Below are positions 35,357-60,680 of a DNA stretch of 64,000 bases, piece by piece. The notes beneath the pieces are model-generated. The model saw only the letters and a program-made list of their open reading frames with translations, ran no database searches and was not told the DNA's origin. The stretch's first letter is position 1, and every line of letters begins with the position of its first letter. The translations under genes were made by a program, and so were the position numbers. Source of the DNA: an uncultured Macellibacteroides sp. (GTDB taxonomy: Bacteria > Bacteroidota > Bacteroidia > Bacteroidales > Tannerellaceae); the NCBI RefSeq assembly GCF_963667135.1, contig NZ_OY762974.1:1-64000 (forward strand), read 5' to 3'.

Positions 35357-35408
35357 TTTATTTGTATTTGACGTTAAACAGTAACCTATGGCGTATAAGT
35401 TAACACCC

Positions 35409-35439
35409 CAAAAGTATACATATATATGGTTTTAAACAA
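35409..35439 (-). promoter_or_regulatory. Promoter of the GH20 gene
   Basis: Minus strand: -33 TTGT (35436-35439), 19-bp spacer, -7 TACTTTTG (35409-35416). The leader is about 45 nt. The same TATACTTTTG string precedes the RraA gene. Confidence 0.6.
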
Positions 35440-35569
35440 GATATAAGAACATAATATATTTCAAAAATTCATCTATTTTAATCAATTCCATTTTTATCAA
35501 TAAAGATCTTAATTTGTTCCGAATTAAACAATTTTATCATATCAACCAATAAGTGTTAAATTGTATTTA

Positions 35570-35597
35570 TCATCGATCTTTGCATTGTCATCGATCT
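35570..35597. repeat. Direct repeat TCATCGATCT upstream of susC
   Basis: Exact 10-bp copies at 35570-35579 and 35588-35597, 18 bp apart, about 80-110 bp before the SusC start. Possible regulator site. The string TCGATCTTTGCA here (35573-35584) recurs at 42810-42821. Confidence 0.45.
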
Positions 35598-35677
35598 AAT
35601 ATTATATCCTGTTTTTGGGGGGTTGAGTATTTATCAAGATAAAAATTAAAATACTATTTACACTTAATTAATTATTT

Positions 35678-38743: not shown

Positions 38744-38755
38744 TACTAAGTAAAC

Positions 38756-40345: not shown

Positions 40346-40369
40346 TAAATTATAATAGGTTGTAGAAAA

Positions 40370-40402
40370 AAGGGAGGAGCTTTGGCTACCTCCCTTTTCT
40401 TG
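40370..40402. terminator. Terminator after the first SusC/SusD pair
   Basis: Stem AAGGGAGGAGC (40370-40380) with GCT-A-CCTCCCTT (40385-40396, one bulge), then TTCTTG. Converging gene on the other strand. Confidence 0.8.
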
Positions 40403-40455
40403 TAATTTGAATCATGCTTAATGGTACAGTGCTCTATGAAATAATTAATTACAAA

Positions 40456-42606: not shown

Positions 42607-42704
42607 TTTGTAAATATTTATTAGACTGAAAGCAAAAATAGTAATTTAAAGTGTTTATTCGTCTTAATTTATGCAGCAATCGAATCCTCACAAATCAATG
42701 CGGA

Positions 42705-42800
42705 TCAATTGTTAATTTCCAAAGGAGTAAAGCCATGATAATACTTTGAAAAACAGGAACAAGAATTGCAGGAAACTGTATACAGCTATTTGCCGAGCTC
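42705..42800 (-). pseudogene. Possible relic of an AraC-type regulator C-terminus
   Basis: Minus-strand translation ending at the stop 42705-42707 reads CFSKYYHGFTPLEINN. This resembles the last turn of AraC-family DNA-binding domains ('FsKvFKkyyGmTPleyR'). No upstream part of the gene is found. The match is short and could be chance. Confidence 0.3.
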
Positions 42801-42819
42801 TCATTTTTTTCGATCTTTG
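42789..42819 (+). promoter_or_regulatory. Promoter of the second beta-helix gene
   Basis: -33 TTTG (42789-42792), 19-bp spacer, -7-like GATCTTTG (42812-42819). The leader is about 95 nt. The surrounding TCGATCTTTGCA is shared with the SusC upstream region. Confidence 0.5.
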
Positions 42820-42920
42820 CAGATGCAAGAATATAGTTGTGAGACTTTTGTTAAAGTCTTCTTTGGTTTTAATCTTGCCGTTTAGTAAACTTAAATTAAT
42901 TGAACTGAATCTGAGATCCT

Positions 42921-45082: not shown

Positions 45083-48000
45083 TTATAAACGGACTGTTAT
45101 CTTTCCGTAACAAGGAGTAACGTCCAGTGCTTTGCAGTAGTCACCCCAGGCTATTTCAGGATAGTCCCACCGGTTGTTTATGTACAGAACCAGTTGCTCG
45201 TCTTTAAGTTTGTTGAGGCGGCAGGCTAGTTCTCCGGAAGGGGATACTATCTGTACCTTCCCTTTGTTTGCTTCGCCCGAAAGAACATACGAGTAGGTGT
45301 TTTCTTTCATCCCCTTGGCAACCTGTGTAAGCGGTTTCTTGCAATCGGCTCCGGCATCAGCGAAGTAGTAATAATTATGGGTATCGTATTCCCATGCCTG
45401 ACGGGGTTCTTCTCCGTACTTTACAACGGTCTTGTTATACAGAGGCGTTTTTCCTTTGGGAGCCCCAAAATGTTCGGATGGGTAATTACTCCAGTATGAA
45501 TTGCGATTCCATTCAAGCTGAGCAATCGTTGATGGCATATGAAACTTAACGCCCGATTCGCGCAACCAGCCGTTGGGCTCGTTCTGTGTCTCGTAATTAA
45601 TATCCATTTCTCCCGAAGCATGTATCCGTATACTGAAGTTTACGGATACACCCAGATAAGTTCCACTCAAAAGAACCTGTATCTGCTTATCCTTTTTTTC
45701 GTAAGAGAACGCAGTCTTTTTCCAGTCCGAATCTTTTACAATATAGTTTTTAGCTTTCTCGCGCACTTCCGCTCCCGTATTGTGATTGAAGTTCAGATCC
45801 AGGTTTAAGAAAGGACCTTCGGCGATCATTACTTCACCCTTCGAAACTGCATTTTTTATCAATCCTGTTTCTTTCATGAAAGGAATGCTGAAGTTGTCTC
45901 CCTTGATAATAATCCGGTCCGGAGTTTCCTCCACTTGTAGTGCATTACCTGCAGCTAGTTCGGCCACTTTTTCTGTAGTACCCAGTGTGATGGTATAGGC
46001 ATCAATCAAATCACTCTTACTTGTGAAAAACTCAATCACAACTTCATCTCCTTTTTTCCAGTCATTTGCAGGAATGGTAAATGCACCCTTCTTGCGAGGG
46101 GCAAGTTGAGGCGATACAACAGAACCTTTTTTTCCTTTATAGGTGTAGGTAATAGTAACCTCGCTGAGGTTTGTATGGTCGAAACGATTGTAAACCGGAA
46201 CCCGTAGCTTTTCGCCCGATGTGAATGCCGGAAAGTTCGTTTCGGTTACACGGATTGGCGAATAGGCTTTCTTAGTTCCCCAGAACTCCGGCTTTTCGCG
46301 TCTCCATACGTCAATGATTCCCCATTCTCCATAACCTACACAGTTCCCGGTATATGCTGCCGGCTTAGCTGTTTTACTAAACTCGATCCACCAGGGAGTC
46401 CCAACTTTGGGAGTAGGAAGCATAAAGGTTTCATCAATGAATCCCCAGATAGCTCCACCTAAACCTCCACGGCTTTCAAACAGATTACTCCACATTTTGT
46501 CCAAAGATATTCCCCAGAACTCACGAATGTTGGGATCGTCCTGCAAGGTGGAGTAGGTGTAACAGGGTACATGCGCCCACTCATCAAAAATAGAGGGATA
46601 GTTTGCCGTCTGGTAGTTGTGTACCTGGACCCCATACTGATTCAGGTTGCCTTCAACTCCCGGATAATGCATACTGATAATATCATACGCTTTCTTTTCG
46701 GCAGGTACAGTTCCCGGATAACTGAATATCGCGGGACGAGTCGTGTCGGCTGCTTTAATCCAGTCGTACGACAATTGGAAATTGGTGCCGTAAACGGATT
46801 CATTGCCAATCGACCAAAACAGGATAGATGCATGATTTCTCAAACTTGTAACCATTTCCTGAAGTTGAGACAAATATCGGTTTGTAAAGGCTGTGTCGTT
46901 TTGAGAATTAGCGGGACCGTAGTTTTTCTGACGGTGTGTGTCCACAAAGCAGATGGCTGTTTCGCATTCAACGTATAGTCCCATTTTGTCGCAGTATTCC
47001 AGAAAACGCTCTGTTGGTGGATAGTGAGATGTACGAACAAAGTTCATATTTGATTTTTTGAACAGAACGACATCCAGACTGTCATATTCGGCGGTAGTTG
47101 TACGTCCCAATGTAGGATGCATGTCGTGACGGCAGGCTCCCCGAAGTTTTACCGGCTTGCCATTAACGAATAGTTGGTTTTCTTTGATTATAATATCCCT
47201 GAACCCAATCTGGCGTGTGAACGAATAAATTTCTTTCCCGTTTTCTACGCAGGATGTACGAAGGGTATATAGATTCGGATGTTCGGCATCCCATTTTTTA
47301 GGATTAGATACCTGCATTCGGTGCGTAAGCGTGTCGGTTCCGACAGGGATCTCCACACTGGAATTACTCAGCGATATTACTTTTCCTTGTGGATCAAGCA
47401 GCGTGAATTTTACCTGCATCGCCTTTGTATGCTGCAAAGAAAGCGCTACATTCAGTGAGGCATGCGTGTAATTTTTATCCAGTACGGTTTCGACCCGAAA
47501 GTTGTCGATATGATTTTTGGGGAGCGCATAAATCAGGACATCCCTTAATATACCCCCAATTGGATGATGGGCATATCCACTTGCATAGGATATATCATCT
47601 TTGCGGTCGGTTACCTCCAGTTTTATTTCATTGTTTTTCCCGGGCTTGATATAAGTTGTTACATCGCTTTCCCATCGGGTGAACCCTCCGTGATGCTCAC
47701 GGATGAATGTTCCGTTTACAAACAAGCGTGCATACGAATAAACTCCGTCGAATCGTAAAATAACTTGCTTACCGGCAAAATCGGCTGGAATGGAAAACGA
47801 TTTTCTGTAGAGTACAGGCTTGTCGTGTTCGATGGCAAAGCCCTGCATGGCACATTCGCCGGGAACGACTATAGTTGACCAGCCTCCTTTAGGCTTGTAA
47901 CTACTTTTTTCCATGCTTTTTTGAGGCTGGGGATCAAATTGCCAGGTTCCGTTTAATAGGAGCCGGTAATTGTGGACTCCTGCAACAGCACCGGGTAACG

Positions 48001-48085
48001 GCGGTTGCTTACTAGCTGCTTTCGATGCAAAACTGATCGCAAAGCAAAGCAGACATTGAAGGATAATAAGTCGTTTTGTACGCAT
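45083..48085 (-). CDS. GH2 family glycoside hydrolase (beta-galactosidase-like)
   Basis: 1000 residues. Signal peptide MRTKRLIILQCLLCFAISFASKA; the start is set at this Met because the upstream extension overlaps the symporter gene. Sandwich domain about 50-220 (LLLNGTWQFDP, ILRFDGVYSYARLFVNG), immunoglobulin-like domain, then the GH2 barrel with GACRHDMHP, FVRTSHYPP, acid/base Glu in ILFWSIGNESVYG and nucleophile Glu in SIFDEWAHV. It removes a terminal beta-linked sugar in the periplasm. Last gene of the minus-strand block, 38 bp after the symporter. Confidence 0.92.
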   Translation of the reverse strand: MRTKRLIILQCLLCFAISFASKAASKQPPLPGAVAGVHNYRLLLNGTWQFDPQPQKSMEKSSYKPKGGWSTIVVPGECAMQGFAIEHDKPVLYRKSFSIPADFAGKQVILRFDGVYSYARLFVNGTFIREHHGGFTRWESDVTTYIKPGKNNEIKLEVTDRKDDISYASGYAHHPIGGILRDVLIYALPKNHIDNFRVETVLDKNYTHASLNVALSLQHTKAMQVKFTLLDPQGKVISLSNSSVEIPVGTDTLTHRMQVSNPKKWDAEHPNLYTLRTSCVENGKEIYSFTRQIGFRDIIIKENQLFVNGKPVKLRGACRHDMHPTLGRTTTAEYDSLDVVLFKKSNMNFVRTSHYPPTERFLEYCDKMGLYVECETAICFVDTHRQKNYGPANSQNDTAFTNRYLSQLQEMVTSLRNHASILFWSIGNESVYGTNFQLSYDWIKAADTTRPAIFSYPGTVPAEKKAYDIISMHYPGVEGNLNQYGVQVHNYQTANYPSIFDEWAHVPCYTYSTLQDDPNIREFWGISLDKMWSNLFESRGGLGGAIWGFIDETFMLPTPKVGTPWWIEFSKTAKPAAYTGNCVGYGEWGIIDVWRREKPEFWGTKKAYSPIRVTETNFPAFTSGEKLRVPVYNRFDHTNLSEVTITYTYKGKKGSVVSPQLAPRKKGAFTIPANDWKKGDEVVIEFFTSKSDLIDAYTITLGTTEKVAELAAGNALQVEETPDRIIIKGDNFSIPFMKETGLIKNAVSKGEVMIAEGPFLNLDLNFNHNTGAEVREKAKNYIVKDSDWKKTAFSYEKKDKQIQVLLSGTYLGVSVNFSIRIHASGEMDINYETQNEPNGWLRESGVKFHMPSTIAQLEWNRNSYWSNYPSEHFGAPKGKTPLYNKTVVKYGEEPRQAWEYDTHNYYYFADAGADCKKPLTQVAKGMKENTYSYVLSGEANKGKVQIVSPSGELACRLNKLKDEQLVLYINNRWDYPEIAWGDYCKALDVTPCYGKITVRL

Positions 48086-48123
48086 AGAGTTTATGTGTGA
48101 TATTAAATTAATTGACTGGGTTG

Positions 48124-49689
48124 TTACCACCAAATGGTGTAAAACGCAATAAGAATGATTATTATAACACAGGCTGCTATATTGAATGACTTTGTGGTCT
48201 TAAATAAATCCGGTGTAAGGACGATGGATTTTTCGGACACACCTTTCTTTTCAATAAGCGCACTGATCAGGATGGTAAAGCAGCAGAGAATAAAGACAAT
48301 TCCCATACGGTCCATCCAGGGAAGTTCCGGCCATACGTATTTAAGCAGAGCCGAGAAGGCAAACGAACCGATTGCGGCCAGTAAAGCCCCATTGGCTGTT
48401 GCTCGTTTATAAAAGAAGCCGGCCAGGAAAATAGAGAGCGCCCCCGGACTAATAAATCCGGTAAATTCTTGTATATACTGAAAGGCCTGATCCAATCCCG
48501 AAAGTAGGGGAGCTATTGTTATGGCAACTAGCAGCGAGGCAAAACTTGCCCATCTTCCGGTTCGTACTAATTCTGTTTCACTGGCTTTCTTTCGCAAATA
48601 GGGTTTGTATATATCCAGCGTGAAAATTGTGGATATGCTGTTCATCATGGATGCAAGCGAACTGACGATCGCCGCTGTTAATGCGGCAAAAGCAACCCCT
48701 TTAACACCTACCGGCAACAAATTACTTAAAAGCCACGGATATGCTTCGTCCGATTTTGACAGAGGAGCTTCCAGCGCAAAAGCCGCAATACCCGGTATCA
48801 CAACCAGCAGGGGAATAAATAATTTGATAAAACCTGCAAATATCATTCCTTTTTGAGCTTCCTCAACCGATTTGGCCGCAAGTGCCCGTTGGATAATATA
48901 TTGGTTGCAACCCCAGTAATACAGATTGGCTACCCAAAGACCGCCAATGATAACCGAAATGCCGGGAAGATCTTTGTATCCGGGATGCGATTTGTCCAGA
49001 ATCAGGTGAAATTTGTCCTGTGTTTTTGCGCATAAATTACTAAAGCCCTGGATCGCTCCGTCGCCTTCGCCCAATAAATTGAGCGCAATATAAGTGGTCA
49101 TTAAACCTCCGCCAACCAGGAATATTACCTGAATAACATCGGTAAGAGCCACCGCTTTTAGTCCTCCGTAGATCGAATAAATTCCTGCAAATAACGCTAA
49201 TCCGATTACTCCGTATATCATGGGGAACCCCATTACCTTCTCGATCGTTAAAGCCCCTAAGTAAAGTATGGAGGTTAAATTGATAAAAATAAACACCGCT
49301 AGCCAGAATATGGCCATAACCGTTTTAACTCGTTTGTCGAAACGTTCTTCCAGAAACTGGGGCATTGTGAAAATCTTTTTTTCCAGAAAAATGGGAATAA
49401 AGAATTTGGCTACAATAATTAGCCCCAATGCCGCGATCCATTCGTAGGTAGCCATGGCCAATCCGATTGCATAGCCCGATCCGGACATTCCCACAAATTG
49501 TTCGGCAGAAATATTTGATGCAATAATGGAAGCCCCAATGGCCCACCAAGCCAGCCCTCTTCCTGCCAGAAAGTAATCTTTGGAGTCTTTTTTTGTTCCT
49601 TTCTTTGTGCGCGAAACAAATAAGCCGACACACATGATCAGCATGCAGTAAGCTACAAAAATGGCAAGATCAATAGCCGATATATTCAT
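48124..49689 (-). CDS. Sodium:solute symporter (SSS family)
   Basis: 521 residues with about 13-14 TM helices. SSS features: DYFLAGRGLAWWAIGASIIASNISAEQ, GYAIGLAMATYEW and LTDVIQVIFLVGGG in the middle, plus FTGFISPGALSIFLAGFF. Couples Na+ influx to uptake of a sugar or sugar acid across the inner membrane. It sits between the lactonase (12 bp upstream) and the GH2 (38 bp downstream), so it probably imports the sugar released by the GH2 enzymes. Confidence 0.93.
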   Translation of the reverse strand: MNISAIDLAIFVAYCMLIMCVGLFVSRTKKGTKKDSKDYFLAGRGLAWWAIGASIIASNISAEQFVGMSGSGYAIGLAMATYEWIAALGLIIVAKFFIPIFLEKKIFTMPQFLEERFDKRVKTVMAIFWLAVFIFINLTSILYLGALTIEKVMGFPMIYGVIGLALFAGIYSIYGGLKAVALTDVIQVIFLVGGGLMTTYIALNLLGEGDGAIQGFSNLCAKTQDKFHLILDKSHPGYKDLPGISVIIGGLWVANLYYWGCNQYIIQRALAAKSVEEAQKGMIFAGFIKLFIPLLVVIPGIAAFALEAPLSKSDEAYPWLLSNLLPVGVKGVAFAALTAAIVSSLASMMNSISTIFTLDIYKPYLRKKASETELVRTGRWASFASLLVAITIAPLLSGLDQAFQYIQEFTGFISPGALSIFLAGFFYKRATANGALLAAIGSFAFSALLKYVWPELPWMDRMGIVFILCCFTILISALIEKKGVSEKSIVLTPDLFKTTKSFNIAACVIIIILIAFYTIWW

Positions 49690-49701
49690 AGTATAGATTT
49701 T

Positions 49702-50583
49702 TTAGTGAGTGATAAAAGGATAATGATTGATACCAGCTCTCGCATTCACATTTGCTACAAATAAGCCACCACTCGTAGGATAGGCAACTTTCTCTTCTTC
49801 GGTGAGACCAGCGCGGGCTGTTGTGATAAAAAGCTGATTCTTCTCTTTTCCTCCAAACGTACATGACGCTGCATTTGGCACAGGAATCTCAATTTTGTCT
49901 TCCAGCACTCCCGTTTGGGGGTTCCAAATATAGACACCAAAGCCTCCCCAATGAGCTACCCAGAGGAATCCGTTCTCGTCGATGGTCATCCCATCGGGTA
50001 CGCCGTATTGGGAAGGAACCTGTATAGCTACCCGAAGGAATGTGATTTCTCCTTTTTCCGGATTGTATGCATACGCATGGATGCACCCTTTTCCTGAATC
50101 GGCATAATACATGCATGTTCCTGTTTTATCCCAGACGATGCCGTTTGGAATGCATTGTTTGTCCAGCACTTTCCGCAGGCTAAAATCATTTTCCATGCAA
50201 TAGAGAGCACCTGTGTTTTGATGATCAGTCAGATGCATAATTCCAAGCCAGAGACGACCTTCGGGCGATGCTTTTCCATCGTTGGGGCGTAGATTGGGCT
50301 GATTGGCTTCAATTTCTGTTATCGTTGTGAGTTCTTTTGTTATCAGGTGGTAAAGAACCAAACGCCCACTCAAGGCCAAAATGACTTCATTCTTTCGTTG
50401 AGTGGGTATAATGGTCGACACTCTTGCTGGAAGAATGTGGTCTGAAAAACAGTTTGTTGAAGGATTAAACACGTGAAGAATACACGAGTCGATGTCTACC
50501 CAGAGTAAAACTCCGATATCGTCGAGCCAGGTCGCAGCTTCGCCTATTTCATCCATGCAGGGGTATAAAAGTTCCGCTTTCAT
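49702..50583 (-). CDS. SMP-30/gluconolactonase family lactonase
   Basis: 293-residue six-bladed beta-propeller. Metal-binding residues of the family are seen: Glu in DEIGEAATW, Asn in CIPNGIVWD and Asp in YGVPDGMTIDENGFLWVAHWGG. It would open a sugar lactone to the free acid in the cytoplasm (no signal peptide). It follows the SDR gene by 10 bp and fits the second step of an oxidative sugar pathway. Confidence 0.92.
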   Translation of the reverse strand: MKAELLYPCMDEIGEAATWLDDIGVLLWVDIDSCILHVFNPSTNCFSDHILPARVSTIIPTQRKNEVILALSGRLVLYHLITKELTTITEIEANQPNLRPNDGKASPEGRLWLGIMHLTDHQNTGALYCMENDFSLRKVLDKQCIPNGIVWDKTGTCMYYADSGKGCIHAYAYNPEKGEITFLRVAIQVPSQYGVPDGMTIDENGFLWVAHWGGFGVYIWNPQTGVLEDKIEIPVPNAASCTFGGKEKNQLFITTARAGLTEEEKVAYPTSGGLFVANVNARAGINHYPFITH

Positions 50584-50593
50584 TGATAAACAA

Positions 50594-51388
50594 TTAATAG
50601 TTATCCTGCATCAAAGCCGAGCGGCCGCCATCCATCAATATGGTCGTGCCACTGATGAAACGAGCCATTGGTGAGGCCAGGTATACACATAAATCACCAA
50701 CTTCTTCCACGGTGCCAATTCGTTTAACAGGATGCAGATCAATGGTACGCTGACGTTCGGCTTCTGCATCCGGAAAAGAACCGAACCACGTGTCGTTTCC
50801 TGCCGTATCAATAAAACCGGGAGCAACACCAACCGTTCTGATTTCGGGCCCCCACTCAATAGCGAGTGCCCTTGCGAGTCCTGTAATAGCTGTTTTTGTT
50901 ACGTTGTAAGGGAAACATCCCGGAATAGAACTGTATGCGTGATTGGAAGTCATCAACAATATAACACCTTCTCTGCTTTTAACAAGCCACGGGCGGCAGA
51001 GCTGAGCCAGCCTCCAGTGGGAGGCCAGATTCAGATCCATATTGTATTGCCACTGATCCTCCGTACAATGTTCGACTCCCTTAAAAACGTTTACTCCTGC
51101 ATTGGAAACCAATATATCCAGTCTTCCAAATTTTTCTATGGTTTTTTCAACCAGTAGCTCCAGATCCTCTTTTTTGGTCACATCCGCTTGTACATAGAGC
51201 GATTGCATCCCCTTTGACTCCACGGCCGATTTAAACAATTCCGCACTTGGATCATTTTCGGGTTTGCGTGAGCAACCGGTTACATGCGCTCCGGCTTTGG
51301 CAAACTCTGCGGCTACCCCAAGTCCGATGCCGGAGGATACGCCGGTTACCAGAACTACTTTGTCTGTAAAATCTATAACAAAGCTCAT
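50594..51388 (-). CDS. SDR family NAD(P)-dependent dehydrogenase
   Basis: 264 residues from the ATG at 51388; the longer TTG frame runs into the dehydratase gene. Features: TGVSSGIGLG (cofactor loop), SNAGVN, a Tyr/Lys pair in FPYNVTKTAITGLARAL and C-terminal FISGTTILMDGG. Ser of the usual Ser-Tyr-Lys triad is in LMTSNHAYSS. Probably oxidises a free sugar to its lactone, the first step of the pathway. It starts 4 bp after the dehydratase stop. Confidence 0.92.
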   Translation of the reverse strand: MSFVIDFTDKVVLVTGVSSGIGLGVAAEFAKAGAHVTGCSRKPENDPSAELFKSAVESKGMQSLYVQADVTKKEDLELLVEKTIEKFGRLDILVSNAGVNVFKGVEHCTEDQWQYNMDLNLASHWRLAQLCRPWLVKSREGVILLMTSNHAYSSIPGCFPYNVTKTAITGLARALAIEWGPEIRTVGVAPGFIDTAGNDTWFGSFPDAEAERQRTIDLHPVKRIGTVEEVGDLCVYLASPMARFISGTTILMDGGRSALMQDNY

Positions 51389-51392
51389 TCGT

Positions 51393-52562
51393 TTAAATAT
51401 AAAAGTTTGCGGGAGGATTACTAACAATGCCCGGATGTTTTTCCATTTCTTCTTCGATCAGATCCACGCCCAGTCCGGGACGGTCCGAAAGATGAAGATG
51501 TCCGTCGTATACCATGTCACTGATTGGATGATCAATAACTGTATCTCTCCATTCCACATCATTGAACATAAATTCCTGGCGGAAGAAATTGGGAATGGCC
51601 GCACAAACATGCGATGAAGCAAGGGTGGATAAAGGACCGTTTGGATTATGAGGCGCGATCAGCACATTGTATGCTTCGGCCATGGTTGCCATACGTTTCA
51701 TTTCGGAAGGTCCGCCGCAACGGGTAATATCAGGCATAATCACATCGCACACGTGTTTTTCAAGTATGGAACGAATTCCGAAACGGGTGTAATGGCGTTC
51801 TCCTACACAAATAGCCACGTCCGAAGGGATTCTTTCGCGCATGGCCCGAAGGGTTGAAGAGCTTTCGGGGCCTGCTGGTTCTTCATACCAGGTGATGTCA
51901 AGTTTAGCCAGCCGTTCGGCCATTTTTACGGCTACACGGTAGTTCAACATGGCATGCGTCTCGATCATAATATCAAATTCCGGACCTACCGCATCTCTTA
52001 CCGCTTTGGATACGTCGAAAGCCAGATCCTGCTGTTTGGCGGTGAGGGTTAAGTTTGAAGACAAATCTTCTCCATACAGGTAGTTTGTGTGTGCGAATGG
52101 ATCAAACTTAAGGCCGGTGAATCCCGCTTCTTTTACCTTGAGAGCCTGTGCCGTATAGTCTTCCACATTATGCCCCCCTCCGGTAAACCAGTAGTTTGCA
52201 TAAAGAAGTATGTTTTTACGGTAAGCACCACCCAAAAGCTCGTAACAGGGAACACCCAAAACTTTCGCTTTCAAATCCAGTAAAGCCATATCAATGCCAC
52301 TGATGGCACACATGCTGGCGCCATAGGGGCCAATCCAGTTTAAATCCCGGTAAAGCTTTGTCCAGATAAAATCTGTCCGCATGGGGTCCAGTCCTATAAT
52401 TCTTTCTCCAATGTGTTTGGCTGCGCCGTAAACAACCGGGCTTCCCGGCCAGTTTGTAGCTTCACCAACACCTGTGTATCCTTCGTCTGTATAAATTTTA
52501 AGTAATGTCCAGTTGTACTTAACGCCTTGTACCAACCAGACTTTTACGTCCGTAATTTTCAT
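51393..52562 (-). CDS. Enolase-superfamily sugar acid dehydratase (MR/MLE family)
   Basis: 389 residues. N-terminal capping domain (MKITDVKVWLVQG..WTLLKIYTDEGYTGVGEA). The barrel has ligands in DIMIETHAMLNYRVA (D/E and His), WYEEPAGPE and AICVGERHYTR, with the catalytic His in LIAPHNPNGPL. This resembles galactonate/gluconate-type dehydratases, which make 2-keto-3-deoxy acids. The exact sugar acid is not readable. It lies between the aldolase (35 bp upstream) and the SDR (4 bp downstream). Confidence 0.9.
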   Translation of the reverse strand: MKITDVKVWLVQGVKYNWTLLKIYTDEGYTGVGEATNWPGSPVVYGAAKHIGERIIGLDPMRTDFIWTKLYRDLNWIGPYGASMCAISGIDMALLDLKAKVLGVPCYELLGGAYRKNILLYANYWFTGGGHNVEDYTAQALKVKEAGFTGLKFDPFAHTNYLYGEDLSSNLTLTAKQQDLAFDVSKAVRDAVGPEFDIMIETHAMLNYRVAVKMAERLAKLDITWYEEPAGPESSSTLRAMRERIPSDVAICVGERHYTRFGIRSILEKHVCDVIMPDITRCGGPSEMKRMATMAEAYNVLIAPHNPNGPLSTLASSHVCAAIPNFFRQEFMFNDVEWRDTVIDHPISDMVYDGHLHLSDRPGLGVDLIEEEMEKHPGIVSNPPANFYI

Positions 52563-52597
52563 ATATTTTGTTTTTTTTGAATCTTAATTCTTCCAGA

Positions 52598-53290
52598 TTA
52601 CATAATGCCAAATTTGTCGAAAGCTTCTCTTGAAGGCATTCCTTCTTGTATTTTTTTAAGCACCACCCGTTCGCCTCTTGCTTTTTCGAGGGATTTGGTG
52701 ATTACTTCCTCTTCAATGCTTCGTGGAATAACACATACTCCGTCCACATCCCCAATAATAATGTCTCCATCATTTATAAGAACACCTTCCATATCAATGG
52801 GAACGCGGAAGTCAATTACTTTTCCTCTCGGAGCCTGATCCTGTGCATACGGACCATAAGAAAAACAAGGGAAATCAAGGGCAAGAATCCCTTTTGTGTC
52901 TCTGGAGTAGCCATTCACTACAGCACCTGCGGCCTTACAGGCGATAGCCCGTGCGCTCATCAATTCTCCCCACAAAGCATAGGCGGGAGAGGAGCCGGAA
53001 CAAATGTATATTTCGTCTTCCTTCAAATCGTCTAAAGCTTCGAGCATAAGACCAAATGATTTTTTGAGCAAGGGATTGCTTCCGCCAGACGTGGCGTTTT
53101 CCAATACATCTGTTTCCAAAACGGTCATTGCGCGTCCGACAACGAACATATCATCCCGCAGGGGGCGGATGCGCGGGGGAAGAAACTGGCGCGTGTATCC
53201 TAACTTGTCCATAATATCTCCGATTACGGCGGTATACAGTTCCTCTTTAATTAGAGCGAACAATGATTTATCCTCTTTCCATTCCTTCAT
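52598..53290 (-). CDS. RraA-like class II pyruvate aldolase family protein
   Basis: 230 residues. Family features: LYTAVIGDIMDKLGY at the N-terminus, AIACKAAGAVVNGYSRDTKGI (conserved Arg-Asp of the active site) and IIGDVDGVCVIPRSIEEEV. Related proteins are 4-hydroxy-4-methyl-2-oxoglutarate aldolases or RNase E regulators. With the Arg-Asp pair and its neighbours, a role as aldolase cutting a 2-keto-3-deoxy acid to pyruvate is the best inference. It is first in the enzyme sub-block and has its own promoter box. Confidence 0.88.
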   Translation of the reverse strand: MKEWKEDKSLFALIKEELYTAVIGDIMDKLGYTRQFLPPRIRPLRDDMFVVGRAMTVLETDVLENATSGGSNPLLKKSFGLMLEALDDLKEDEIYICSGSSPAYALWGELMSARAIACKAAGAVVNGYSRDTKGILALDFPCFSYGPYAQDQAPRGKVIDFRVPIDMEGVLINDGDIIIGDVDGVCVIPRSIEEEVITKSLEKARGERVVLKKIQEGMPSREAFDKFGIM

Positions 53291-53331
53291 GGTGTGTTAT
53301 TTATATGATTTTATTTGTTTTTTATAGTACA

Positions 53332-53339
53332 CAAAAGTA
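53332..53339 (-). promoter_or_regulatory. -7 box upstream of the RraA-like gene
   Basis: Minus-strand TACTTTTG in the string TATACTTTTG, identical to that of the GH20 promoter. No clear -33 box. The leader would be about 35 nt. Placed in the 180-bp gap after the AraC gene, so the catabolic genes may be transcribed separately. Confidence 0.45.
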
Positions 53340-53470
53340 TATAATACGATTAAATAGATGTTTAGAAACTCTTCCTATATAATTATGCCTTAAGGACCAT
53401 ATATTAGTAATATGTGTAAAAAACGGAACAAATAAAATAAATATATGACCTGGAATTTTTTAAGGTGTTA

Positions 53471-54328
53471 TTATCGATTTGTAATCTCTTTTGGAGATAT
53501 ACCCATCTGTTGTTTAAACACGCGGGAGAAATACTGAGGAGACTTGTATCCGCATGTGAAACAGATCTCTTTTACGGAGAGTTCCGTATTTTTAAGTAAA
53601 TCAATCGCTTTGTTAATTCGAATTTGATTGAGGTAATCAAGTGGCGAGATGTTAAGATGCTGTGCAAAGAGCTTTCTTAAGTATCTTTCTCCAATTCCGG
53701 CTTGCTGTGCCACATCTTCCATTGTTATATCGGTATGAAAATTCATACGCAAATATGAGATTGCCTTTTTTAAGCTTTCGTTTGTGCAAATTGGAAGATA
53801 GGCTTCGTCCATATGTCGGTAAATAAGAATCAACAACTCTGCGTAATACATGATAACTAAGTATTGATAATATTTATTTTTAGAATTTAGTTCATTAACG
53901 ATACGTTGTACTGCCCGCATAATTCGAACATTATTGACAATTTTAATAAGATGATTGGCTTCCGAAAAGATTGTGACAGGAGTCAAACCTATGCTTGTCA
54001 TATTCTCTGAAGAATCAAATTTTGAAAAAATTTCGGGAAGAAACTCCAGTTGCATCAGTATTGTTCCTTCCGCTCCCGCTTCGAACGAGTGTTTTACATT
54101 TGAACAAATAATCATTATTTCGTTTTCACTGAAGCAGACACTTTCGTTTTCCAGCCTAAGGATACAGTTTCCTTTTTTTACATAGTTAATTTCGATGCGC
54201 ACATGCTGATGCGGACCGAACTTTTCGAATGGTTTAAAAGATACAAAACGAAACACATCTGCCAATCTTTTCTTTTCGAGGTTCCTGACTATTTCTTCCA
54301 GGCTAGTAAAAAGGGAATTTGTGTTCAT
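53471..54328 (-). CDS. AraC family transcriptional regulator
   Basis: 285 residues. The N-terminal cupin-like sensing domain (about 25-150) contains FGPHQHVRIEINYVKKGNCIL and NEIMIICSNVKHSFE. The C-terminal double helix-turn-helix (about 185-283) has ITMEDVAQQAGIGERYLRKLF and SVKEICFTCGYKSPQYFSRVFK, ending GISPKEITNR. Likely senses a sugar and controls the neighbouring glycoside hydrolases or catabolic genes. It starts 5 bp after the GH2 stop and lies between the hydrolases and the oxidative enzymes. PULs more often use hybrid two-component or anti-sigma systems. Confidence 0.93.
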   Translation of the reverse strand: MNTNSLFTSLEEIVRNLEKKRLADVFRFVSFKPFEKFGPHQHVRIEINYVKKGNCILRLENESVCFSENEIMIICSNVKHSFEAGAEGTILMQLEFLPEIFSKFDSSENMTSIGLTPVTIFSEANHLIKIVNNVRIMRAVQRIVNELNSKNKYYQYLVIMYYAELLILIYRHMDEAYLPICTNESLKKAISYLRMNFHTDITMEDVAQQAGIGERYLRKLFAQHLNISPLDYLNQIRINKAIDLLKNTELSVKEICFTCGYKSPQYFSRVFKQQMGISPKEITNR

Positions 54329-54333
54329 GATAA

Positions 54334-57234
54334 TTAATTTTCATTTAAAATAAATGTGACTTTCCCATTTATATTATCCCTTTTTTTTAAAGGCTTATAG
54401 TCCTTTTCGGCATGTGATACCAGAAATTGTTCCCTTCCCGCATTATTGTAATCTGCAACTAAAAAATGTATTATATCAGCTTCTTTCCATGCTCTGAAGT
54501 GCTGCTTTCCGTCTGATAATATCTGAATTTGGGATCCGTTTCCATTTTTGAGTGAGGCTGTTTTAATAGACTCTTTTGTGGATCTGAAATCGTTTGATCC
54601 TGCATTTGTCCAATCAAGGTTCCAATCATGTGCGGGTTTTGCTCCAGGTCCAGCCAGTCCGCAAACGGAAGTTTTTTTGTTGTATAAATTGGCAGTGCCT
54701 TCCAATCGTGCAATATGATTTGACGGATAGACAGACCAAAATCCATTTCTTTTCCAGCTAAGCTCTGTATATGAATCGGAAACTGAAAAAACCAATCCTA
54801 TTTGTCGGGGAGATACCGCTTTTTTTACATTGAAGTCGTATTCAATATCAACCTTTCCGTTTGCATGAAATAAATAGCAAAAACTTCCATCAGCTTCCTG
54901 ATAGCTTCCATTTACCTGTACTTTTATCACATCATTATTCTGTGTAGTCTGAATAGAGTTTGCTACCCAGTATTTACAAACTGGAGTGTAGGGATCAAAG
55001 TTCTGGCCTTCGCCTGTCATCTGGATTCCTCGCCCTTCGCCGTTTAAAGGTAGTATCATCAGTTCCGGAGTCTGTTCAAGTACTGTTTCATTTTTACTAT
55101 TTTTGGCAAGTAATAATCCATTCAGCTTATTTATGGTATATGTTCCTGTACAAGATGAGATAACCAGCTGTTTGTCGTTTTCGGAAAACTTTAAAATTCC
55201 ATTCTTTTCCTTTTCAGTAATGACTTGTTCTGGTTTAATAGTGAATTTATACTGGTCAATCACATACCCCAGCGGGCTCACTACGTTTAATTCGATAAAA
55301 TTACTCTCCCGTGCTTTTTCAGGAAGGGAAATTTTAAAAGCTCCTGTTGCCTTGGGAGATAGATTAACCGCTACAGTCCCTTTCACGTATTCATTAGCCC
55401 ATTGAAAGCGACAGGCAGAAAGATTGGTGAAGTTATGTCTGTTTTCAACTTCAAAAAGAATATTTCCTTCTGAGTCTATATTTCCCTTCATTTCGATTTT
55501 TACCGGCGAGTAGACCTTTTTCATATTCCAAAACTCAGGCTTTTCCCTTCTCCATCCATCAATAGGTCCCCAGGTTCCGTAACCTACGGTTTTTCCGTCG
55601 GGCAAGAAAAATGAGTCGTCTATTCCAGCCCAGATAGCACCACCAAGCACTCCTTTGCTGTAATACATGTCATTCCACATGCGGTTAAGCAATTCACCCC
55701 ACATATTTCTTACTCCCGGATCTGCCGACAGTTCTAAACGATTATAAGCGTTGAGGTGACAATATTCATCAAAAACGATAGGTCGTTTGCTGTTTTCATA
55801 TGTCTCCGGACCTGTTGGACCCGGGTAGTGATGGTTGCCAATTTCTAAATCTCCCTTATCAGAATCCGGGCCCCATTGACTAAAGATTCGAGGGCGGGTA
55901 GGATCCATTTTTTTTGTGATGGCAGCCGCTTGCTTAAAATATTCTTCATACAGATTTGATTCGTTTCCCATCGACCAGATTATGATTGAGGGGTGACTTT
56001 TATCTCTGTTAACCATTTCAATGTGTTGATTCACCAAGAGTTGGTAATGCTTATCTTCGGAAACTTTTGTTTCGTGAGCCCAGCAGAAGGGTGCTTCCAG
56101 TTCTACAAACATTCCTAATTCATCACAAGCATCAAGAAGGGCTTCATCCGGTGGATAATGAGAAGTTCGAATGTAATTCACATTTCCGCTTCTGAATATT
56201 TCCACATCCTTTTTCCATATATCACCTTCCAGCGAACGGCCTCGCAAGGGCATAACTTCATGGCGGCATACCCCCCTGAGTTTTACCGGAAAATTGTTTA
56301 CGAAAAGTTCATTTCCCCTGACTTCAATTTGTCTGAATCCGACTTTGCGTGAAGTTTGTTGCAGAAGTTTTCCATCCTGTTTAAGCTCGCAGGTAAGAAT
56401 GTATAAGTTTGGATTTTCAGAATCCCATTTCATAGGTTCGGTAATATCGGCACTGATTGTTTGGCTTTCCGTAACCTGCGAGGCAATAGGTTTAAGTTTG
56501 TATTCGTTCTTTTTTAATGTAACAACTTTACCTTTTGGATCTGTCAGTTTAAAGCAAACGCTAAGATTGTCTGATTTAGTTTTTAGTTCATTACAAATAG
56601 CTACTTCTGTTGATAGAACAGCATTTTTGTATTTTTCATCGAATGTGGTTTGCACATGGAATGAAGCTATATTTACCTCAGGAAGAGCAAATAGAAAAAT
56701 GTCGCGAGTGATTCCTTCTAAGGGATGAACCGCATATCTGGACGCACTGGCCAATGAATCTGCCAGACTTTCGCTTTTTATGGCAATTGCAATGCTATTT
56801 TTACCGGAATGAACAAGAGAGGTAACGTCCAGTTCAAAGGGAGTAAAACCTCCCAAATGAGACCCAGCTGCAGAACCATTTATGTAGATGAATGATTCGC
56901 TGAAAATACCATTGCAACGTAATTTTATTCTTTTATTTTCCCAAGAAGAAGAAATGACGAATTCTTTAACATACCCGGCAAGCTGACCCTTTTCTACTTT
57001 ATATCCCTGCATTACCCATTCTCCGGGAACGGAAATATTTTTCCAGTTTTTCAAGTTCTTGATTGTCCAGAAAGATTTGTCGGGAGAGGTGTTAAATAAC
57101 CAATTTCCAGACAAGCTTACTTTTTCTTTTTCCATATTTACAGGAAAGGGAGAAAGCCGTGGAATGTTGAATTCCTGTCCGTTTACTGAAAAAACAATCA
57201 GCATTAACGCCAATAAAAAAACAATTCGCTTCAT
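54334..57234 (-). CDS. GH2 family glycoside hydrolase
   Basis: 966 residues. Signal peptide RIVFLLALMLIVFSVNG. Sugar-binding sandwich domain (KVSLSGNWLFNTSPDKSFW, IKLRCNGIFSESFIYING), then the GH2 barrel with GVCRHEVMPLRGR, YIRTSHYPPDE, acid/base Glu in IIWSMGNESNLYE and nucleophile Glu in IVFDEYCHLNAYNR. C-terminal galactose-mutarotase-like beta domain (about 690-930). Closely related to the next GH2 upstream; the catalytic blocks nearly match. Second gene of the block, 23 bp after it. Confidence 0.93.
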   Translation of the reverse strand: MKRIVFLLALMLIVFSVNGQEFNIPRLSPFPVNMEKEKVSLSGNWLFNTSPDKSFWTIKNLKNWKNISVPGEWVMQGYKVEKGQLAGYVKEFVISSSWENKRIKLRCNGIFSESFIYINGSAAGSHLGGFTPFELDVTSLVHSGKNSIAIAIKSESLADSLASASRYAVHPLEGITRDIFLFALPEVNIASFHVQTTFDEKYKNAVLSTEVAICNELKTKSDNLSVCFKLTDPKGKVVTLKKNEYKLKPIASQVTESQTISADITEPMKWDSENPNLYILTCELKQDGKLLQQTSRKVGFRQIEVRGNELFVNNFPVKLRGVCRHEVMPLRGRSLEGDIWKKDVEIFRSGNVNYIRTSHYPPDEALLDACDELGMFVELEAPFCWAHETKVSEDKHYQLLVNQHIEMVNRDKSHPSIIIWSMGNESNLYEEYFKQAAAITKKMDPTRPRIFSQWGPDSDKGDLEIGNHHYPGPTGPETYENSKRPIVFDEYCHLNAYNRLELSADPGVRNMWGELLNRMWNDMYYSKGVLGGAIWAGIDDSFFLPDGKTVGYGTWGPIDGWRREKPEFWNMKKVYSPVKIEMKGNIDSEGNILFEVENRHNFTNLSACRFQWANEYVKGTVAVNLSPKATGAFKISLPEKARESNFIELNVVSPLGYVIDQYKFTIKPEQVITEKEKNGILKFSENDKQLVISSCTGTYTINKLNGLLLAKNSKNETVLEQTPELMILPLNGEGRGIQMTGEGQNFDPYTPVCKYWVANSIQTTQNNDVIKVQVNGSYQEADGSFCYLFHANGKVDIEYDFNVKKAVSPRQIGLVFSVSDSYTELSWKRNGFWSVYPSNHIARLEGTANLYNKKTSVCGLAGPGAKPAHDWNLDWTNAGSNDFRSTKESIKTASLKNGNGSQIQILSDGKQHFRAWKEADIIHFLVADYNNAGREQFLVSHAEKDYKPLKKRDNINGKVTFILNEN

Positions 57235-57257
57235 TGTTATCTATTTTGTATAGTTTA

Positions 57258-60200
57258 CTATTCTATTCTTAGTGTGATGTTTCCGCTTATGGTATCACCT
57301 GTCTTGATTGGTTTTCTGTAGGGCGCATAATAGCTGTTAAGAAACATTTCATCTCCTGCAGTCACAAAATCGGCCACCAGAAACTGTATTCTGTTATTGT
57401 GTTTCCATGAACGCCAATGTTGTTTGCCGTTCGAAATAGCTGTAACCTTACTTCCTGATTCATGTAAAAGGCCTGCATACCATATATTTCTGCGTGTAGA
57501 GCGAAAATCACAGCTTCCCAGTTCATTGTAATCCATACTCCACGACCAGGTAGGCTCTACTCTTGGGTTTACCTTTGCCGGAATGCCTGAATAGAATAAT
57601 TGGGCTTCACCAGCCGGTCTGCTGATATGGTCTTTAGGGTAAACACTCCACATACCGTCACGTCTCCAGAATGTTTTATTAAAACTGTCCGGAGTTTCGA
57701 ATACCAGTCCCCATTGGCGGGGATTTACATCCTGCAATGCGTTAAATTGATAATTAACTTTAAATTCGCCATTGGCATTAATTACCAAAGAATAATTACC
57801 TTCAAACTCATTGTATGAACCTTCCACTTTTATAACAACGTTCATTGCATCCTGAGAAGCCAAAATGCTTTTAATTTTCCAACCAGAGCACAAATCATTG
57901 AAAATTGGAGTATTTGCATTGTGATTCGGATAACAACCTCCACCCGTTAGAGGTAAAGCCATCAACCAAGGACCTCCGTTAATCACTTCCTTGTTATTTC
58001 GTTTCATTGAAAGAATTTGTCCGGTTACCCTGCTTATTTCGCAAGTAAAATTTTTTCCGTTGATAGTGTATTTGTCTTTATTGCTTTTTAATTTTGTTTT
58101 TTCAGATGTAAGAGCTTGTAATTCGTTTTGAGACTGCTTGCCAACAGGAATAACATATTCGTCTGCAATGAAATTGCGTGGATCCTTAAATACAATACTT
58201 AACTCGTTTGCATTCTCCGGATTGGCAATACATAGATGAATCTGCCCTTGTTTTCCCGGCTCCAGATTAATAAACGATGTACCTTCTTCCTTCCCGTATT
58301 TCCAGTTTATTTGTAATTCACTAAAGTTTGTAAAGGTATAACGGTTTTCAACTTCTATTGTCAATTCTTTAGATGGCGTAAGGCTAGCTGTAAGAACTCG
58401 GATCGGACTATATATTTTTTTCATGTCCCAGTATTCGGGTTTGGGGCGGCGCCATCCGTCTATAGGTCCCCAGGCTCCATAACCAACAGCATCGCCGTTT
58501 GGTAACTGAAAAATATCATCTATGCCAGACCAGATTGAACCTCCCAGTACACCCTTTGTCTTATACATGTTATCCCATGTAGGGCTAAGAGCCAAAGCCC
58601 AATCGCTTCGGATTCCCGGGTCTGTTACAAGTTCACTTCTGTTATATACATTTAAATGACAGTATTCGCCATAAATCATAGGACGCTCGCTTTGTTCAGC
58701 TACTTTATAGCCGTTTGGTCCCGGATAGTGAATGTTGGCAATTGGAGAAGTGCTGCCCTGATTGTTGAATCCCCCGTATGCCTGATCGTGAAATGTGGAA
58801 GGACGGGTAGGATCTGCCTTTCTTATATATTCGAGAATTTGGGCAAACTCTTTATTCCAATATGATTCGTTAGCCATCGACCAGAAAAGAATGGATGGAT
58901 GGTTTCTGTAGAAATGGATGGTTTCCATGTTTGCCTGAAGAACGTAGGGGTAATACTTAGTATCCCTGTAGTTTAAGCGAGTCCAGTTTTCATTTGCATG
59001 ATGACCAATCCAGCAAACAGGAGATTCCACTTCAACAAAAAGTCCGATTTCATCACATATTTCTAAAAATTCTTCACAAGGAGGATAATGAGATGTTCTG
59101 ATGAAATTACAATTTGCAGCCCTGTATAATTCGGCATCTATTCGGCTTAATTCGGATGAGATTACTCTTCCTGTAAGAGGGTGTGCTTCATGGCGGCAAA
59201 CACCTCTTAATTTTACAGCATTTCCGTTAACCAACAGTTCGTTTCCTTTTATTTCAATTTCTCTAAAACCAATATTTTTACAGATTTGTTCGGTTACAAC
59301 ATCTCCTTTTCTCAGTTCAAGACTAAGAGGATAAAGGAAAGGGTGTTCGTTATCCCATTTTTTCGGAGAGGGAACATTTCCTTCCAACCATCCGCTCCAG
59401 GTTTCACCGGCTGCGATAGAAGGTATCAGTTTTTCAATAACCGTTGGCAGCCCAGCCAAATAGATACGAATAAAATTGTTTTTTGAAACTTCGCCCGAAG
59501 CATTTTTTACAGATACAAATACTTTTAGTGTTGCATCTTTATATTTATCATCCAGATCGGTTACGATTCTTAAATCTGAAATGTGATTTTTCGGAACAGT
59601 AAATAAAGTTACTTTCCGGGTGATTCCACCAAGCTGATGTGCGGCATATTGAGTAAGGCTCCCAAGCATATCTGCCATTGATTCACTCCGCACCTTTAAA
59701 GCTAAATGATTTTGTCCTGCAATCAATCCGTTTGTGATATCCAATTCAAAAGCAGTCATACCCCCCATGTGATTTCCAATTTCTTTTCCATTCAGAAATA
59801 CAACGGCCTCACTGGATACGCCATCGAATCGAAGTTTTACTTGTTTGCCCGACCAGTCTTCCGGTAGAGTAAAGGTGGTACTGTATCCCCCAAAAGCGGC
59901 AGAATCAACTTTAAATCCCTGCATGCTCCACTGTCCGGGAACGTTAATGTTTTTCCAACTATTACTGTTAACAGGCTGTTTCCAAAAATCATTTTCCGGT
60001 TTATTGTTAAATTTCCATACACCGTTCAATGATAGCTTTTCCCTGAATATTCCGGGAACTCTATAAGGCATAACGGAATAAGTTGGGAGTACATCTTCGA
60101 TATTGACCAGTGTGTCAACTATGTAGCTGTGTGTGTGTTTTAAGGCAAGTTTCCGTTCTCCTTCAAACGGGATAAGAGGTTTAGGATTGGATGAAAATAT

Positions 60201-60680
60201 ATTCAATTCGGATATTATAGCATTACTTCCTTTCAATGCTTCAAAAACAAGAACAAGCTGACCGTAGGCATACGCTTTTTTGGGCAAGTTAATAATGTAT
60301 CGCTGCTCTTTTCCTTTTTGGAGTTTAAAAGGTTCCTGTACAGTATTTCCATCAGCAATGATCTGTTGTTCACGATCATTATCTGCCAGATACACTATTT
60401 CCATCCTATAATCTGCTTGTATGTCAATTTTGTCGAAGGCATAGATGATTGTTCCTCCAAAATTACAAGTGAGGGCTTTTTTAGATCCTGTAAATGAGTC
60501 AGGAAGCTTGTAGTTTTCTCCCTTAACCAAGTACGGTTGTGCTTTTTCAACGCCGCAATCGTTTGAGGCAACCAAAGTATATTCTTTTTTTTGAGAATAC
60601 ACTAAACATACATTTGTAATAAACAGAACAGAAAGGCATATTTTATTTATCCCAATCCATCTTTTTGTTGTGCTTTTCAT
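57258..60680 (-). CDS. GH2 family glycoside hydrolase with N-terminal carbohydrate-binding-like domain
   Basis: 1140 residues. After the signal peptide (ICLSVLFITNVCLVYS) comes an extra domain of about 150 residues (YTLVASNDCGVEKAQPYLV..NLPKKAYAYGQLVLVFEAL) that looks like a CBM6/35-type sandwich. GH2 then begins at KLSLNGVWKFNNKPENDFW. Barrel motifs: GVCRHEAHPLTGR, FIRTSHYPPCEE, acid/base Glu in ILFWSMANESYWN and nucleophile Glu in MIYGEYCHLNVYNR. A C-terminal beta domain follows. First gene of the minus-strand block; divergent from the second SusC gene. Confidence 0.93.
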   Translation of the reverse strand: MKSTTKRWIGINKICLSVLFITNVCLVYSQKKEYTLVASNDCGVEKAQPYLVKGENYKLPDSFTGSKKALTCNFGGTIIYAFDKIDIQADYRMEIVYLADNDREQQIIADGNTVQEPFKLQKGKEQRYIINLPKKAYAYGQLVLVFEALKGSNAIISELNIFSSNPKPLIPFEGERKLALKHTHSYIVDTLVNIEDVLPTYSVMPYRVPGIFREKLSLNGVWKFNNKPENDFWKQPVNSNSWKNINVPGQWSMQGFKVDSAAFGGYSTTFTLPEDWSGKQVKLRFDGVSSEAVVFLNGKEIGNHMGGMTAFELDITNGLIAGQNHLALKVRSESMADMLGSLTQYAAHQLGGITRKVTLFTVPKNHISDLRIVTDLDDKYKDATLKVFVSVKNASGEVSKNNFIRIYLAGLPTVIEKLIPSIAAGETWSGWLEGNVPSPKKWDNEHPFLYPLSLELRKGDVVTEQICKNIGFREIEIKGNELLVNGNAVKLRGVCRHEAHPLTGRVISSELSRIDAELYRAANCNFIRTSHYPPCEEFLEICDEIGLFVEVESPVCWIGHHANENWTRLNYRDTKYYPYVLQANMETIHFYRNHPSILFWSMANESYWNKEFAQILEYIRKADPTRPSTFHDQAYGGFNNQGSTSPIANIHYPGPNGYKVAEQSERPMIYGEYCHLNVYNRSELVTDPGIRSDWALALSPTWDNMYKTKGVLGGSIWSGIDDIFQLPNGDAVGYGAWGPIDGWRRPKPEYWDMKKIYSPIRVLTASLTPSKELTIEVENRYTFTNFSELQINWKYGKEEGTSFINLEPGKQGQIHLCIANPENANELSIVFKDPRNFIADEYVIPVGKQSQNELQALTSEKTKLKSNKDKYTINGKNFTCEISRVTGQILSMKRNNKEVINGGPWLMALPLTGGGCYPNHNANTPIFNDLCSGWKIKSILASQDAMNVVIKVEGSYNEFEGNYSLVINANGEFKVNYQFNALQDVNPRQWGLVFETPDSFNKTFWRRDGMWSVYPKDHISRPAGEAQLFYSGIPAKVNPRVEPTWSWSMDYNELGSCDFRSTRRNIWYAGLLHESGSKVTAISNGKQHWRSWKHNNRIQFLVADFVTAGDEMFLNSYYAPYRKPIKTGDTISGNITLRIE

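Follow-up and report, generated by a model that had tools for sequence, protein, structure and literature searches.

What becomes of a sugar released within a polysaccharide utilization locus (PUL) whose glycosidase genes stand next to genes for oxidative sugar-acid enzymes, and what might an RraA-fold protein be doing among them? The question is raised by nine open reading frames (ORFs) at 45083-60680 on the minus strand of a 64,000-nucleotide stretch (hereafter the window) from an uncultured Macellibacteroides sp., a relative of Parabacteroides from the gut. The window is the beginning of a single 4.46 Mb contig, NZ_OY762974.1. Their order is GH2-GH2-AraC and then RraA-dehydratase-SDR-SMP30-SSS-GH2, where GH stands for glycoside hydrolase, SDR for short-chain dehydrogenase/reductase and SSS for solute:sodium symporter; the GH2 genes are called GH2c, GH2b and GH2a in that order. 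A Pfam scan of the nine proteins returned GH2 three times, AraC, RraA-like PF03737, the N- and C-terminal MR_MLE domains, SDR, SGL/SMP-30 and SSF. An earlier reading of these letters alone (the sequence-only reading) had named nine genes of these families at this position and strand, with no kinase among them, and the ORF list and the Pfam scan bear it out on each point. As in other PULs, a SusC/SusD pair adjoins the glycosidase genes, divergent from the GH2 genes.

In the route that we propose, the GH2 glycosidases would free a monosaccharide in the periplasm and a sodium symporter of the Vibrio sodium/glucose cotransporter (vSGLT) type would import it, after which the cytoplasmic SDR would oxidise the sugar to an aldono-lactone, the SMP-30 protein would open the lactone to the aldonate, and the enolase-superfamily enzyme would dehydrate the aldonate to a 2-keto-3-deoxy acid, either 2-keto-3-deoxygluconate (KDG) or its C4 epimer 2-keto-3-deoxygalactonate (KDGal). 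The RraA-fold enzyme would then cleave this acid by way of a metal-bound enolate of pyruvate; the products would be pyruvate and an aldehyde, which for a hexose is glyceraldehyde. All of this would be encoded within an AraC-linked operon. We lean, if narrowly, towards this account as a whole, from AraC-linked import through oxidation to the 2-keto-3-deoxy acid to cleavage by RraA. Each reaction, the sugar and the place of RraA as last aldolase are what we infer from gene order, protein families, conserved residues, genomic neighbourhood and upstream boxes, which are observed.

Judged by its recurrence, the gene order of the block is more than chance, because the RraA-dehydratase neighbourhood reappears in 39 of 49 loci. 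These loci, at least 49 in number and sharing 53-85% RraA identity, came from 84,980 species genomes scanned with exact peptide patterns, and the figure is a lower bound. Their hosts include Parabacteroides, Phocaeicola, Bacteroides cellulosilyticus, Sphingobacterium, Flavobacterium, Chitinophaga, Marinilabilia, Opitutaceae, Sphingomonadaceae, Chloroflexota and Spirochaetales; the RraA-dehydratase pair extends from Bacteroidota to Opitutaceae and Sphingomonadaceae, and RraA alone reaches Chloroflexota and Spirochaetales. Neighbours were counted at fixed identity limits (at least 55% for the dehydratase and at least 50% for AraC) on the same strand and within 9 kb of RraA, while a gene similar to a window GH2 was counted at any distance within the locus, provided that its strand was that of RraA. 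On this basis the dehydratase accompanies RraA in 39 loci, SDR in 32, SMP-30 in 20, SSS in 19, AraC in 12 and GH2 in 22, with four of the 49 contigs ending less than 1.5 kb past RraA, where little downstream sequence is visible. Among the 39 loci with both, fewer than 200 bp separate the RraA match from the dehydratase match in 35, and at most 50 bp in 29; in the remaining four (L032, L034, L050 and L060) a single GH2 gene stands in between. The sequence-only reading had suggested looking for the RraA-enolase-SDR-SMP30 neighbourhood in other genomes, where it does recur, and its tie between the oxidative genes and GH2 holds in the 22 loci just mentioned. Its description of the design as unusual is not supported, given how widely the pair occurs and given that an oxidative branch of a carrageenan PUL has been published (PMC5698469; here and below, statements on cited papers refer to parts of their text). 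The glycosidases near RraA vary, with GH89 and GH123 in L012, GH95 in L017, GH31 and GH3 in L020, GH31 in L065, GH38 in L064 and a sulfatase in L033; hosts therefore differ in the glycan and perhaps in the sugar.

Proteins of the RraA type are often read as RNase E regulators. The block protein matches PF03737 with 111.9 bits (cut-off 24.5), and its AlphaFold2 model, with a mean pLDDT of 90, matches the structures 5ir2, 3k4i, 2c5q, 3NOJ and 5x15 ahead of the shorter RraA regulators; 5x15 is a Streptomyces protein titled as an unusual RNase ES inhibitor. The nearest solved structure, 5ir2, carries 'cellulase' in its deposition title, yet has the RraA fold. Structure 3NOJ is a Pseudomonas aldolase acting on 4-hydroxy-4-methyl-2-oxoglutarate and 4-carboxy-4-hydroxy-2-oxoadipate (HMG/CHA aldolase), and its Asp102 presumably corresponds to Glu109 of the block protein. 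R130, D131 and E207 of the latter align with R123, D124 and E199 of 3NOJ; R130 and D131 are present in 52 of 52 sequences and E207 in at least 93% of them, so that the aldolase-type residues expected by the sequence-only reading are kept. In the HMG/CHA aldolase, Arg-123 is the catalytic arginine and Asp-124 and Glu-199 are the two metal-ligand acids (PMC5065237). The two proteins have in common the RraA fold, the Arg-Asp pair and a C-terminal metal-ligand Glu, and they differ in substrate, with 22% identity over the fold match.

What seems to us the strongest lead on the role of RraA comes from locus L064, where UxuA, a seven-bladed PF10282 lactonase, an SDR (assigned by BLAST at 31%), a porter-like ORF (judged from its first residues only), an RraA 61% identical to that of the block and a GH38 lie on one strand. 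Lactonase and dehydratase here belong to families other than those of the window, and therefore the same logic has come together twice, each time with an orthologous RraA. As UxuA converts D-mannonate to KDG, the substrate of RraA is likely to be KDG or the C4 epimer of KDG. Locus L065 holds, also on one strand, GH31, a sugar porter, an aldose epimerase, RraA, the dehydratase (79%), SMP-30 and SDR, and in L066, from the host's family, a distant RraA paralogue (33%) adjoins an enolase-superfamily gene and lies near an apparent SDR and a lactonase-type protein, both read by eye. A bolder proposal, to which we give somewhat less than an even chance, is that the RraA-fold protein represents a new family of metal-dependent aldolases for unphosphorylated KDG/KDGal, a common last step behind several unrelated oxidative routes (enolase-superfamily and UxuA) in several phyla. 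Were that true, a set of proteins annotated as RraA-like would be sugar-acid aldolases. If the set works as proposed, a whole subfamily of RraA-type proteins would act as lyases on sugar acids, and glycan sugars would have a second, oxidative outlet in Parabacteroides, Phocaeicola and Bacteroides cellulosilyticus.

Several RraA loci have a different setting. In L042 (6391-11609) and L037 (9974-14242), RraA proteins of 63% and 68% identity, respectively, occur with SDR-like, divergent enolase-superfamily, RidA-domain and creatininase-family proteins, and L042 also holds a PfkB kinase; these two represent a different route with a common RraA. In L059 (8465-16715, Spirochaetales), a 53% identical RraA adjoins SelA-like, RidA-family and ABC solute-binding proteins, with KDG-kinase-like and 2-keto-3-deoxy-6-phosphogluconate (KDPG)-aldolase-like genes downstream.

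RraA could also act as a 2-keto-3-deoxy acid dehydratase/decarboxylase that yields a semialdehyde-type product in place of pyruvate, as does the RraA-like FlDet of Flavobacterium UMI-01 on 2-keto-3-deoxy-hexarate (PMC8563752). We consider this improbable, as the FlDet substrate is a diacid, whereas the substrate suggested by UxuA in L064, KDG, is a monoacid, and the Pfam scan of the nine block proteins matched no aldehyde or semialdehyde dehydrogenase family.

The oxidative part of the proposed route, that is, the succession of dehydrogenase, lactonase and dehydratase put forward by the sequence-only reading, is supported by families and conserved residues. Dehydratase residues E201, H203, E227, E255, D278 and H305 are invariant in 40 of 40 sequences. 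One dehydratase alignment served for a survey of conservation only. In the SDR, S161, Y174 and K178 (numbered from the TTG at 51427) are invariant in 33 of 33 sequences, as are E15, N147 and D197 of the SMP-30 protein in 22 of 22. From family knowledge, we take these invariant residues of the three enzymes to be the catalytic ones. The dehydratase scores below every listed NCBIfam cut-off, the best match being the galactonate dehydratase equivalog (233 bits against a cut-off of 311), and its substrate could not be read from the nearest PDB sequences, since the best (2poz, 2qq6 and 2o56) are named only as putative. The nearest solved structures of the SDR are generic, and those nearest in sequence to the SMP-30 protein are 7plb and regucalcin.

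The same SDR could be given another task. The 4-dehydrogenases of fuconate and pentonate routes are reportedly SDRs. In a route of this kind (Route III), for which such 4-dehydrogenases have been described (PMC11199699, PMC6336799), the block SDR would oxidise the 2-keto-3-deoxy acid at C4 and RraA would cleave the resulting diketo acid. The block would then be left without an aldose dehydrogenase to make the lactone for its lactonase, and no FAH-type hydrolase was matched by Pfam among the nine proteins; we regard Route III as very improbable.

The last step is where the proposed route is most open to dispute. The operon might stop at the 2-keto-3-deoxy acid, with a PfkB kinase and a KDPG aldolase encoded elsewhere finishing the pathway and RraA doing another job, for example an overflow or an epimerising (retro-aldol/aldol) step. 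The published carrageenan PUL employs a kinase and an aldolase (PMC5698469). This semi-phosphorylating version is unlikely in our estimate, though far from negligible. It draws on several observations that weigh, together with those of the next paragraph, against cleavage by RraA. The host has adjacent genes for a PfkB kinase and a KDPG aldolase at G000:C1:1012383-1014127, and KDPG aldolase exceeds its cut-off in 44 of 48 genomes with the module (L016 left out). In the Flavobacterium locus L060, both families directly follow SMP-30 in the operon, with RraA kept; they are divergent next door in L028 and lie inside the cluster in L055 and L059. The sequence-only reading had called the pathway complete and free of phosphorylation, and neither term is supported, given the host pair and the L060 operon. 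The opposing evidence is that homologues of the KDG-kinase and KDPG-aldolase queries were found near RraA in only four of the 49 loci and in none of the other 45 (some contigs being short and only part of the neighbours scanned; L042 has another PfkB), and that RraA lies so close to the dehydratase match, within 50 bp in 29 of 39 loci. Four of the 48 genomes are without a KDPG aldolase over the cut-off, though all four are titled metagenome-assembled genomes, and with 44 genomes carrying the enzyme, its presence failed to discriminate between routes. On the side of the proposed route, the host genome has a domain match for glycerate kinase (PF02595).

Further points tell against the proposed route. 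RraA is accompanied by both dehydratase and SDR in 32 loci, and 12 of these show no SMP-30, including all five from Parabacteroides (L012-L016); the four Parabacteroides genomes searched encode an SMP-30 homologue of 41-42% identity elsewhere, with a lipoprotein-like start in the two inspected. In L025, L047, L048 and L055, for which the count gave no SDR ortholog, a D-2-hydroxyacid dehydrogenase stands at the RraA-dehydratase pair; two of the contigs, those of L025 and L048, end close to the pair. L025 and L055 also have parts of a tripartite ATP-independent periplasmic (TRAP) transporter there, and L048 has a GMC oxidoreductase. An HpaI-type aldolase is present in L055, and a 40% homologue of it in L048. 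The correlation of distances between RraA and the dehydratase is the lowest of the ten pairs (r 0.68, kinship ignored). Near the host, RraA relatives are rare. Within its genus, family and order, 5 of 60 genomes (counting the host) had a match, and the four other order genomes with one (of 59) reach only 29-34% identity; in a sample of the phylum, a match at E 1e-30 was seen in 5 of 395 genomes, again counting the host. Among the literature matches listed, the only RraA-like protein that acts on a 2-keto-3-deoxy sugar acid is FlDet, a dehydratase/decarboxylase (PMC8563752). Because of the kinase/aldolase pairs, HpaI, the D-2-hydroxyacid dehydrogenase, the missing SMP-30 and the FlDet precedent, we place the reading of RraA as an aldolase at little better than even.

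One pointer to the sugar that might enter the route is the symporter, which is similar over its full length (residues 3-521) to the Vibrio sodium/glucose cotransporter chain 2xq2 (phmmer E 4.4e-181). From a list of six galactose contacts in vSGLT (PMC13099297), five are kept in the block symporter (K289, E83, Q64, Q407 and N255). The sixth, Ser91, is replaced by Ala86, with Ala in 20 of 20 aligned symporter sequences, possibly as the mark of a different sugar. The nearest PDB sequences of GH2c are beta-galactosidases, and that of GH2a is the beta-galactosidase 3bga. Galactose could not be fixed from GH2 alone, because all GH2 scores fall far below the NCBIfam cut-offs. The host probably has ordinary routes for galactose, L-fucose and L-arabinose as well, since its genome has domain matches for galactokinase, L-fucose isomerase and L-arabinose isomerase; these sugars are still candidates for the block. 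Taking together the vSGLT-type pocket, the beta-galactosidase-like GH2 and the galactonate-dehydratase-like enzyme, we favour an aldose of the galactose or glucose type as the predicted substrate.

The block is probably made of two transcription units, GH2c-GH2b-AraC and RraA-dehydratase-SDR-SMP30-SSS-GH2a, with a promoter inside the gap between AraC and RraA, because that gap measures 180 bp. The others are short: GH2c-GH2b 23 bp, GH2b-AraC 5 bp, RraA-dehydratase 35 bp, dehydratase-SDR 4 bp (assuming the SDR ATG at 51388 in place of the listed TTG at 51427), SDR-SMP30 10 bp, SMP30-SSS 12 bp and SSS-GH2a 38 bp (assuming the GH2a ATG at 48085, the likelier start over the TTG at 48133). The comparison of upstream regions took in the 180 bp before RraA from the window and from 13 relatives, picked mostly for an upstream AraC. 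CCGTWTT and TAnnTTTG, the latter presumably the Bacteroidota -7 element, occur 86-87 bp apart, start to start, in 13 of the 14 regions (the window and 12 relatives); when 2000 stretches of 180 bp were drawn at random from the window, 14 had both boxes, whatever their spacing, the boxes having been picked after viewing the alignment. In L022, unlike its relatives, both boxes are absent before RraA and SSS is on the opposite strand. The longer operator form plus CCT has a single exact match in the host genome, upstream of RraA. Allowing at most two mismatches, the operator search of the window gave 8 matches, where chance would give 2.95 on average and 0 of 100 shuffles reached 8; only the RraA site is free of mismatches, with one mismatch at 21527 and 54169 and two at 60615-60628, near the GH2c start. 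Co-regulation of the GH2c unit through this operator was not borne out, given the two mismatches of its proximal site. The recurrence of the boxes at a fixed spacing, together with the single genomic match of the longer operator, argues for the RraA unit as a regulated operon, whose regulator is probably the adjacent AraC protein.

The features are listed in Table 1. Past SusC and SusD, beyond the window end, lies one further GH2-type gene on the minus strand.

Table 1. Features of the block and the adjoining receptor genes (positions in the window)
Feature	Position	Strand	Description
GH2c	57258..60680	minus	1140 aa, probable secreted GH2 glycosidase; Pfam GH2 N, middle and TIM-barrel domains
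GH2b	54334..57234	minus	966 aa, GH2 glycosidase; Pfam GH2 domains
AraC-type regulator	53471..54328	minus	PF12833, PF00165, PF02311
Promoter-like region	53332..53428	minus	operator-like TTCCGTTTTTTACA (53415-53428) and TAnnTTTG box TACTTTTG (53332-53339)
RraA-fold enzyme	52598..53290	minus	PF03737; probable metal-dependent 2-keto-3-deoxy acid lyase
Enolase-superfamily sugar-acid dehydratase (ENO)	51393..52562	minus	MR_MLE N and C domains
SDR dehydrogenase	50594..51388	minus	PF13561, PF00106; probable aldose 1-dehydrogenase
SMP-30 type lactonase	49702..50583	minus	PF08450, 229 bits
SSS symporter, vSGLT type	48124..49689	minus	phmmer match to Vibrio cotransporter chain 2xq2
GH2a glycosidase	45083..48085	minus	Pfam GH2 domains
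SusC-type TonB receptor, divergent	60892..63645	plus	PF07715, PF00593
SusD	63658-65289		after SusC, beyond the window end

Elsewhere in the window, a second PUL-like group at 33392-44996 comprises a GH20 (33392-35356, minus strand), SusC (35678-38743), SusD (38756-40345) and two beta-helix proteins (40456-42606 and 42921-44996), the first with a sub-cut-off match to the GH141 insertion domain. A Peptide-N-glycosidase F (PF09112, PF09113) is encoded at 28571-29815, a few kb from GH20 and SusC/SusD, and an N-glycan theme is possible in this region neighbouring the block.

Among the matches listed in the open-licence literature, we found no paper on an RraA-dehydratase-SDR-lactonase operon, nor the RraA-dehydratase pairing, its spread or its promoter. 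The individual parts resemble known systems. FlDet, set beside the block RraA by description, is likewise an RraA-like protein of Bacteroidota acting on a 2-keto-3-deoxy sugar acid, and differs as a dehydratase/decarboxylase of a diacid in alginate breakdown (PMC8563752). The Zobellia carrageenan PUL, with its anhydrogalactose branch DauABCD, also joins a Bacteroidota PUL to a dehydrogenase, a dehydratase-like cycloisomerase and 2-keto-3-deoxygalactonate breakdown; its dehydrogenase, however, was originally annotated as a lactaldehyde dehydrogenase, a kinase and an aldolase are present, and the main text of the paper has 0 occurrences of 'RraA' (PMC5698469). The De Ley-Doudoroff D-galactose pathway of Halomonas, in which the lactonase belongs to COG3386 and an SSS transporter is predicted for galactose (PMC5507952), shares with the block a dehydrogenase, an SMP-30 type lactonase, an SSS and, putatively, a galactonate-type dehydratase, whereas the block has neither the kinase nor the 2-keto-3-deoxy-6-phosphogalactonate aldolase of that pathway, has RraA in addition, and its dehydratase falls below the galactonate dehydratase cut-off. 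Route I, the non-phosphorylating Entner-Doudoroff route for pentoses, L-rhamnose and L-fucose, consists of an aldose 1-dehydrogenase, a lactonase, an acid-sugar dehydratase and cleavage of the unphosphorylated keto acid (PMC6336799, PMC3870299). Genes for the first three appear to stand together in the block, as judged by families and conserved residues, while the last enzyme differs in having the RraA fold; the main texts of the two papers contain 'RraA' 0 times. With Route I, the De Ley-Doudoroff pathway and an oxidative branch in a Bacteroidota PUL already published (PMC6336799, PMC5507952, PMC5698469), the design of the block is a variant of published routes.

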